This document shows positions 6,926-8,737 of a DNA stretch of 17,122 nucleotides, piece by piece (the stretch's first letter is position 1; every line of letters begins with the position of its first letter). Origin of the DNA: Alphaproteobacteria bacterium. Its GTDB lineage: Bacteria; Pseudomonadota; Alphaproteobacteria; BOG-932; Roseiterribacteraceae. The position numbers and the translations under genes were made by a program. The stretch is taken from contig CAJCJC010000154.1 of assembly GCA_903970575.1 (NCBI GenBank), positions 1 to 17,122 of the forward strand, written 5' to 3'. Under the pieces are notes generated by a model. That model was not told the origin of the DNA and did no database searches. It saw only the letters and a list, made by a program, of their open reading frames with translations.

Positions 6926-8737
6926 ATGTCCATCCGCCCGACCCGCCGATCGGCCTTCGCCGCTATCCTCTTGCTGGGTGGAACCGCCCTGGCCCCAACC
7001 CCCGCCGGGGCCGAGACAGTCTACAAGCCGATCGATTCGACCATGGCCAATCAAACCATCGTCTTGACCGGGAGAGACCTCACCATTCCCCAGGTAATCG
7101 CGGTCGCCCGCCATGGCGCGAAGGTCGCGCTTTCGCCCGAGGCCAAGCAAAGGGAGGCCGATAATTACGGCCTGCTGCTTGAGGCGGCGACGGAGGGAAT
7201 TTCGGTTTATTGGTTCAACCGGGGCGCGGGCGATCAACGTGAAACGGTGATGTTCGCGGGCGACCCCATGTCCGCCGAGAACAAGCCCAAGATCGAGGCG
7301 CAACAGCTCGCCGAATTCCGCATGGCGGGCATCGGCGCCTATGGCCCCGAAATCAGCGACGAGGACATCGTGCGCGCCATGATGGTGGTGCGGGCCAACG
7401 CCATGACCTGGAACGCGCCCAGCCCGCAACTGGCGCAAATGCTGACCGACCTCTTGAACAAGCGGATCACGCCCATGGTCCGTTCCCGCGGCACGCTGGG
7501 CGAGGGCGATCTGGCGCAGCTCAGCGACGTCGGCGCCACGATGGTGGGCGCCGGAGACGTCTGGTACGACGGCAAGAAGATGAAGGCGGCGGACGCCCTT
7601 CGGCAGGCGGGGCTGCAACCGATTCAGCCCTTCGCCGCTGACATCAACGCGCTCACCTCCAGCGACGCCTACGCCACCGGTCAGGCCGCCCTTCTGGTCG
7701 CGGACGCCGAGGGCGCGCTCGACTGGGCCGACATGGCCTATGCGATGGATTTGACCGGCATGAACAGCTCGATCACCCCGCTCAGCCTCGTGGTGCAGGC
7801 GGACCGGCCGTTCAAATGGCTGAACTGGGACGCCGCGCGGGTTCTGGAGATGATCAAGGGCGGGTATCTGTTCGACGCCGACGAGAAGCGGATCATCCAG
7901 GACCCGGAAAGCCTGCGCGCCTCGTCCATCCGCCAGGCCTCCGCCTGGGATGCCTGGGCGGCGCTGCGCGACGCGGTGATCGAGCAGATGAACAGCTCGG
8001 ATCACAACCCCGCCGTCCATGTCGATGTCGGACCCGGCGATTCCTGGGAACTCGCCAGCCCTCAGATGATGAAATACTACGTCAAGGGCGGCCCCGAGAG
8101 CCACGGCAAACACGGCTATATCGTCTCCAACGCCAATTGGGACCCGTATCCGCTGGCTAACAAAATCGAGGATTTCACCACGGCGCTCGCCAATATGGAT
8201 GTGGCCGTGACCTTGCGGATCGACCGGTTCAGCAATCCGTTCTTCACCGTCGCCAAGGCCAGCGAGGTGATGAAGGGCGGAATGTTCTTTGACGGCGGCG
8301 GCTATACCCCGGTCGATATCTGGCAGGACATCCAGAATCTCTCGAACAGGGTGGTCCCAGAGGGACAGTCGATCGTCGCGACGGTGGAGGATTTGCAGGC
8401 GCAGACTCGCATTAAGGTGGTGAATGCGCGCGGCGTGGTGGACGACACCTACGCGCTGCTGGCGCAGGATCTGCTGGTCGGGGGATATTGGATGGATGTG
8501 CGCAAGACCGAGGATGGCTCCCGGAATTTCGGCCCCGGCCCAACCGCCGCCTGGACCGCGCTCCGTAAGGTCGCGCCTCTGAACCCGGTCGCGCCGCCAC
8601 CCAAGCCCGTGGGGATGATGGTGACCGATTTCATCATGGCGACCCCGATGTCGAGCCTGTATTCCGGCGGCCCGGCCATGCCCGCGACCGACCCCTTGCT
8701 CGCCGGGTCGGCGAAGATGCCGGGCGGGGGGAAATAG
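6926..8737 (+). CDS. exported MIO-lacking homologue of aromatic amino acid / histidine ammonia-lyases
   Basis: The product is 603 residues from ATG 6926, which has GGAG at 6915-6918; an in-frame TTG at 6884 is a poorer start. Residues 1-29 form a signal peptide: RPTRR, a hydrophobic core AFAAILLLGG, cleavage probably after PAGA. The twin Arg is only partly Tat-like. The remainder follows the HAL/PAL fold family: VYWFNRGAG (94-102) for the usual VYGINTGFG, RAMMVVRANAM (150-160), NKRITPMV, RGTLGEGDLAQLSDVG (188-203), QDPESLR (325-331) and NSSDHNP (356-362). The MIO-forming Ala-Ser-Gly is absent: G192-E193-G194-D195 stands where G-A-S-G-D should be. By my hand alignment the catalytic Asn (Asn195 of P. 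putida HAL) is Ser245, Tyr280 is Glu328, and Phe329 is Trp405. A Pro/Gly/Met-rich tail follows residue 550. Standard ammonia-lyase activity is therefore unlikely. The function is unknown. Confidence 0.85.
   Translation: MSIRPTRRSAFAAILLLGGTALAPTPAGAETVYKPIDSTMANQTIVLTGRDLTIPQVIAVARHGAKVALSPEAKQREADNYGLLLEAATEGISVYWFNRGAGDQRETVMFAGDPMSAENKPKIEAQQLAEFRMAGIGAYGPEISDEDIVRAMMVVRANAMTWNAPSPQLAQMLTDLLNKRITPMVRSRGTLGEGDLAQLSDVGATMVGAGDVWYDGKKMKAADALRQAGLQPIQPFAADINALTSSDAYATGQAALLVADAEGALDWADMAYAMDLTGMNSSITPLSLVVQADRPFKWLNWDAARVLEMIKGGYLFDADEKRIIQDPESLRASSIRQASAWDAWAALRDAVIEQMNSSDHNPAVHVDVGPGDSWELASPQMMKYYVKGGPESHGKHGYIVSNANWDPYPLANKIEDFTTALANMDVAVTLRIDRFSNPFFTVAKASEVMKGGMFFDGGGYTPVDIWQDIQNLSNRVVPEGQSIVATVEDLQAQTRIKVVNARGVVDDTYALLAQDLLVGGYWMDVRKTEDGSRNFGPGPTAAWTALRKVAPLNPVAPPPKPVGMMVTDFIMATPMSSLYSGGPAMPATDPLLAGSAKMPGGGK

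Follow-up and report, generated by a model that had tools for sequence, protein, structure and literature searches.

In established lyase chemistry, the electrophilic 4-methylideneimidazole-5-one (MIO) activates a poor leaving group. Ergothionase (ergothioneine trimethylamine-lyase) of Treponema denticola (PDB codes 6s7j and 6s7q), an enzyme of the same fold, is cofactor-free and releases trimethylamine without MIO. Here we describe a gene on contig CAJCJC010000154.1 (assembly GCA_903970575.1) of an alphaproteobacterium, the whole analysed stretch of 17,122 nucleotides being called the window, whose product is a distant relative of ergothionase and likewise carries GEGD in place of the MIO-forming GASGD. 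The “MIO-less” enzyme of PMC3903478 is an engineered Ser-to-Ala phenylalanine ammonia-lyase (PAL), practically inactive on L-Phe, and not a natural enzyme. A literature search on the branch to which the window protein belongs returned no paper, although most subscription journals lie outside its coverage and absence is thus unproven.

Ergothionase gave the best sequence match of the window protein in the PDB (6s7j, E = 1.2e-38; the next best match had 2.1e-20), with SSIGEGD aligned to GTLGEGD, and the top three Foldseek matches were all ergothionase chains. The two proteins have in common the fold, GEGD for GASGD, an NRG motif, Ser for Asn195, QDP..R and an ED motif. They are, however, only 25% identical, ergothionase having QDPL and ANF where the window protein has QDPE and ANW, and a signal-peptide-like N-terminus is found on the window protein. 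HutH, the histidine ammonia-lyase (HAL), is about 20% identical and shares the fold and the Tyr53, Gln277, Arg283 and Glu414 positions, whereas its Ala-Ser-Gly (ASG) triad, Asn195, Tyr280 and Phe329 are missing from the window protein. Residue roles and numbers here and below are those of Pseudomonas putida HAL (Tyr53, Asn195, Gln277, Tyr280, Arg283, Phe329, Glu414).

In our tree, the window protein, ergothionase and other MIO-free proteins form one clade of 26 rows (support 100/99), separate from HutH. The window branch itself comprises 18 rows (support 100/100) on a long stem. Its members include proteins of P. aminophilus plasmid pAMI4 (56% identity), R. ruizarguesonis plasmid pRlX3 (50%) and the metagenome-assembled genomes (MAGs) GP_33 and RYN_452 (67-68%), which, wherever the columns are covered, retain Trp405, the Tyr, Gln and Arg and a loop of the form GE[G/A]D (GEAD in the nearest RYN_452 copy); Glu328 is replaced by Ile in P. 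aminophilus. The R. ruizarguesonis copy has no N-terminal extension, and its gene follows an acetate-CoA ligase family gene.

Outside the window branch lie seven MIO-free proteins that we call group B, for convenience and without implying a clade: those of S. meliloti pSymA, Polaromonas, P. saliphilus, Paraburkholderia, B. arboris and the sampled genomes G322 and G744 (contig C386). The Polaromonas protein stands apart from the other six, which unite at only 90/83. Like the window protein, from which they differ by their 27-30% identity, they have a loop without MIO (GEAD, GQAD or GAAD), the Ser (6/7) and, by eye, several signal-peptide-like starts; unlike it, all seven have QDPLS and Phe, as in ergothionase. 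Where annotated, they are called hutH or aromatic amino acid ammonia-lyase, and some adjoin urocanase-type, hut or Ert genes. Since such proteins cannot make MIO, these annotations mislead. Use of the lyase fold without MIO appears to be a radiation rather than a single odd enzyme.

The loop at the MIO position and the active site

Residue counts are given for 17 window-branch rows of the alignment, with three degenerate rows kept apart and rows without coverage of a column excluded from n. The features of the gene, all on the + strand, are as follows.

6926..8737, + strand: gene for a Lyase_aromatic-fold protein, MIO-free, of the ergothionase lineage (PF00221 match, open frame with stop, tree)
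6926..7012, + strand: signal-peptide-like segment, residues 1-29 (RR, hydrophobic core, AGA ahead of E30), recognised by eye
7208..7210, + strand: Tyr95, where P. putida HAL has its catalytic Tyr53; Tyr in 14/14 rows
7220..7222, + strand: Arg99 of the NRG motif, also in T. denticola ergothionase, Thr in HutH; Arg in 14/14 rows (group B 1/6)
7487..7516, + strand: R188-GTLGEGDLA-197, loop at the MIO position by alignment; Glu193 (codon 7502-7504) stands for Ala-Ser
7658..7660, + strand: Ser245 at the HAL Asn195 position, Ser in ergothionase too; Ser 12/16, Thr 4/16
7898..7918, + strand: Q325-D-P-E328-S-L-R331, with Glu at the HAL Tyr280 position (Leu in ergothionase); Gln325 17/17, Arg331 17/17, Glu328 15/17 (Ile 1, Gln 1)
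8138..8140, + strand: Trp405 at the HAL Phe329 position (Phe in ergothionase); Trp in 16/16 rows
8387..8389, + strand: Glu488 at the HAL Glu414 position; Glu 11/16, Ala 4, Asp 1

Alignment with two HutH proteins (GSVGASGDLAPL) places Glu where they have Ala-Ser and makes the loop one residue shorter. The loop reads GE[GAS]D in all 15 branch rows that cover it (12 GEGD, 2 GEAD, 1 GESD), ASG occurring in none, and a search through all 603 residues of the window protein found no ASG. An earlier note on this DNA, made from the letters alone, had proposed precisely this replacement and concluded that MIO cannot form; both points hold, as do the Ser245, Glu328 and Trp405 changes that it listed. A normal MIO ammonia-lyase with its triad elsewhere can hence be dismissed: no ASG is present, the length and residues of the loop match those of MIO-free ergothionase, and nothing was found in its favour.

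The window protein therefore has the catalytic Tyr of the ammonia-lyases (Tyr95) and not their Ala-Ser-Gly triad. Of the ergothionase-type features it has the GE[G/A]D loop, the Ser at the Asn195 position and the lack of an MIO triad; it does not have the Leu of QDPL or the Phe of ANF, residues that define the activity only by assumption. Glu for Ala-Ser and the change from Asn to Ser245 are common to ergothionase and are therefore markers of that lineage. In group B the loop residue is Glu in five rows, Gln in one and Ala in one, with Leu at the 328 position, Phe at the 405 position and Glu at the 488 position in 7/7 each and Arg99 in 1/6. Glu328 and Trp405 are, as judged from the alignment, changes peculiar to the window branch.

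A maintained gene with a predicted export signal

The open reading frame (ORF) runs uninterrupted from ATG at 6926 to TAG at 8735-8737. PF00221 (Lyase_aromatic) is the sole Pfam match of its product, over profile positions 1-465 of 466 and with 296 bits against a cut-off of 27.3; this full-length match above cut-off makes the protein a member of the PF00221 fold family. Profile comparison had been suggested by the earlier note as a check on family and MIO region, and it confirms the family, with the loop lacking the triad in the branch rows. Eight NCBIfam models for HutH, PAL, tyrosine ammonia-lyase (TAL) or aminomutases also match the protein, every one of them far below cut-off (best HutH, 147 of 539 bits).

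Compared with four relatives at 59-68% amino acid identity, differences at codon position 3 are 1.8-2.5 times those at positions 1 or 2 (for example 0.26/0.22/0.55 at positions 1/2/3 against the branch gene G002_C211a). The codon-position GC content resembles that of ten neighbouring ORFs, position 3 being slightly higher (0.85 versus 0.71-0.83). The gene is maintained as a coding sequence, in agreement with the view in the earlier note that an intact frame of 603 residues is not decay. A pseudogene, a sequencing error and a chance motif are ruled out by this codon pattern and by the loop common to 15/15 relatives covering it.

Residues 10-23 have a mean Kyte-Doolittle value of 2.1, and a signal-peptide-like start was seen by eye in 15 of the 16 branch rows covering the N-terminus, degenerate rows included, the exception being R. 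ruizarguesonis. The window protein is probably exported and periplasmic.

A first structure model, from six sequences, was poor (mean predicted local distance difference test score, pLDDT, of 40) and was set aside. The second, from eight sequences, reached a mean pLDDT of 66 and a predicted template modelling score (pTM) of 0.74, with values below 50 at mature residues 159-166, which contain the loop; for this reason we make no claim about pocket geometry.

Proposed function and alternatives

The computations show directly that the protein belongs to the fold family, has lost the MIO triad, falls into one clade with ergothionase and retains the Tyr, Gln, Arg and Glu positions, and that its codons vary as in a maintained gene. 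Going beyond these to export, chemistry and substrate, we infer that the gene probably encodes an exported, MIO-free, ergothionase-like lyase, which would act on an aromatic betaine and expel its quaternary amine by beta-elimination. Tyr95 would take the beta-proton from the substrate, and a substituted ammonium (trimethylamine in ergothionase) would leave the alpha carbon. As a substituted ammonium is already a good leaving group, an electrophilic MIO would be unneeded; Glu193, located where MIO would be, may help to hold the cationic leaving group. The pocket residues Glu328 and Trp405 appear to point to a substrate different from ergothioneine, or to one bound differently. Should the substrate be a betaine other than ergothioneine, methylated amines would arise here by a new route.

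The earlier note had also suggested a different chemistry. The reaction should differ from that of HAL, PAL and TAL, but the precedent of ergothionase, with GEGD and no MIO, had been missed. Its interpretation is thus supported only in part, because the loop is accounted for by an MIO-free enzyme that was already known. What is new is the distant branch, together with its signal-peptide-like starts, its expansion of paralogues, a pocket signature of its own and a side line of pseudoenzymes.

Gene context bears on the substrate through relatives of the gene. The neighbours in the window look housekeeping-like by eye (aroE, coaE, dnaQ, secB, Smr, hslUV, hisAFE), and this locus therefore gives no pathway clue. 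In genome G002 (97% complete), a window-branch gene on contig C211 lies, on one strand with genes of UbiX and UbiD type, 122 bp from a match to ErtE (N-carbamyl-L-glutamate amidohydrolase; 564 bits against a cut-off of 520). On contig C301 of that genome, an ErtD match (hydantoin-5-propionate amidohydrolase, 690 bits, cut-off 600) lies about 7 kb from a window-branch gene, two branch genes being present within the same 19 kb. The group B gene on contig C386 of G744 belongs to a cluster that also holds ErtD (727, cut-off 600), ErtE (555, cut-off 520) and thiohydantoin desulfurase (543 bits against a cut-off of 440), as well as a thiourocanate-hydratase-like gene split into parts of 589 and 305 bits, under the cut-off of 930. 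This cluster supports a trimethylamine-lyase chemistry for the lineage.

Downstream of its window-branch gene, plasmid pAMI4 has a set of genes that exceed the cut-offs for ErtD, ErtE, desulfurase and thiourocanate hydratase, and no lyase adjoins this set. A tblastn search of the whole plasmid gave two genes of PF00221 type. One is the window-branch gene, at a distance of about 111 kb from the set, and the other a GAAD-type gene (198892-200388, L117/L118) about 13 kb from it, the latter annotated hutH and located near MaoC and CoA-transferase genes. Either of these, or a chromosomal gene (the chromosome was outside the search), could serve the set.

These associations, together with ergothionase being the nearest solved relative, would suit a plain exported ergothionase that converts ergothioneine to trimethylamine and thiourocanate. 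We regard this as unlikely, however, given that ergothionase and 7/7 group B rows have Leu and Phe where the window protein has Glu328 and Trp405, that G002 has no match to thiohydantoin desulfurase, and that two genomes carry six branch genes apiece, one of them degenerate in each, which suggests several substrates or roles. The only thiourocanate hydratase match in G002 is a fragment of 213 of 930 bits which, as it stands beside a true HutH, is probably HutU. In the source genome of the window (G000, 65% complete), no ErtD above cut-off, no ErtE or desulfurase match and no ergothioneine-pathway gene above cut-off was found. On account of the missing desulfurase in G002 and missing Ert matches in G000, we hold the chemistry of the ergothionase-like lyase, in which a good amine leaving group departs without MIO, more firmly than its substrate.

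To much the same degree we doubt that the window protein is a lyase-fold pseudoenzyme or binding protein, for example one that binds betaines in the periplasm and works with an uptake system. Such a fate is suggested by a sub-branch of three degenerate members on contigs C216 of G002, C95 of G001 and C381 of G000, with mutual identities of 45-61%.

L033 7973-9688, L034 8563-10245 and L040 1808-3430: degenerate members

In these three, Tyr95 is replaced by Ile, Pro and Val, the loop Glu and Gln325 are gone and Arg331 is lost in two, whereas Arg99 is kept in all. Their genes are nonetheless open frames and 3/3 are divergent from thiC (by Pfam for C216, by sequence for C95 and C381), and no frames except short ones were called in between. 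Codon-position differences between C216 and C95 are 0.29/0.21/0.58, position 3 varying most, and the sub-branch probably consists of maintained pseudoenzymes. The window protein, in contrast, retains the Tyr, the loop Glu and Gln325, which are invariant where covered in the 17 non-degenerate branch rows. The binding or structural role raised by the earlier note is accordingly unneeded for the window protein, yet it fits the degenerate sub-branch, of which one member is in G000. The thiC-linked genes offer a natural comparison of enzyme and pseudoenzyme.

Less likely still is the elimination or addition of a different group (sulfonium, hydroxyl or thiol), or an isomerisation, in a lyase pocket without MIO. 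MIO serves poor leaving groups, and Glu328 and Trp405 would remodel the pocket, but the gene context, indirect as it is, points to trimethylamine-lyase pathways.

Distribution, paralogues and TonB-dependent receptors

With the window protein as query at E 1e-30, six matches each were obtained in G000 and G002 and one in G001, degenerate copies included. PF00221 has seven matches in G000: the window gene, C357, two tandem copies on C341 (one cut by the contig end), C192 (cut), degenerate C381 and a HAL-like piece on C2. Of the nine in G002, six are window-branch genes, one is a true HutH and two are pieces of a single HAL-like gene, and none belongs to group B. At E 1e-30, and with scoring limited to three candidates per genome, five of 385 sampled genomes of the class had a match (G000, G001, G002 and, more weakly, G074 at 34% identity and G322 at 31%, the latter with a group B motif), as did two of 398 of the phylum (G000 and G429). 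The best 40 of 825 matching plasmid records include pAMI4 (56%) and pRlX3 (50%), the other 38 being at 35% identity or less, and a genome-contig search gave three loci, from MAGs GP_33 and RYN_452. A scan of viral contigs yielded no relative for the alignment; two other scans gave one HutH fragment and one HutH. The window branch looks rare.

TonB-dependent receptor genes were found in 6 of the 15 branch-bearing contigs or records inspected, namely G002 C211, C301 and C216 and G001 C95 (Pfam) and G744 C124 and C183 (by eye); C216 and C95 hold degenerate members only. None was present in the stretch inspected of the other nine (the window contig, G744 C249, G429, pAMI4, pRlX3 and four G000 contigs of 3.5-6.3 kb), the unannotated ones being checked by eye. 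Genome-wide, receptor matches number 38 in G001 and 48 in G002, and about 0.15-0.17 would be expected per 20 kb. The link between receptor and lyase is suggestive only. As a receptor gene lies near some relatives, outer-membrane uptake is possible, and the substrate may cross through such a receptor before being split in the periplasm. In the wider picture, which we put forward tentatively and with less confidence than the lyase chemistry itself, secreted, paralogue-rich, MIO-free lyases of a few alphaproteobacteria and MAG GP_33 might split non-ergothioneine betaines in the periplasm, partly fed by TonB receptors and accompanied by a conserved thiC-adjacent pseudoenzyme line.

Four TonB receptors have a C-terminal OmpA domain (L031 6673-9588, L032 5596-8571, L033 13099-15906 and L034 13874-16720). 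We dropped the fusion as a specific partner of the lyase: such fusions are widespread in the genus, and for that reason proximity alone is claimed. Genes resembling sulfotransferases with tetratricopeptide repeats (TPR) recur near receptors (L031 9863-11449, Pfam; L008 1761-3767 and L074 2063-3409, by eye), two of the three also lying near lyase genes. PhnD-like binding-protein genes at L031 5726-6544 and L045 11721-12557 are 32% identical, one near a window-branch gene and the other, in a different genome, near a group B gene.

Other observations were made around these loci. At L010 869-3913, an MFS transporter and a window-branch lyase share a single open frame without an intervening stop, which exits the contig. 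Genes like pqqB, pqqC and pqqE (by eye) lie downstream of a window-branch fragment at L078 5059-7998. Among more distant proteins, a HAL-type protein (L055 1438-2955) and a pAMI4 gene have GSVGAAD or GSIGAAD for GSVGASGD, a further MIO-free type. The very divergent HAL-like protein at L031 18105-19634 has GQGGAGE at the MIO position and no ASG there, with a similar piece, by eye, on C2 of G000 (L007). In the HAL-type protein of G744 (L052 1211-2590), GSVGACGD has Cys for the Ser of the triad.
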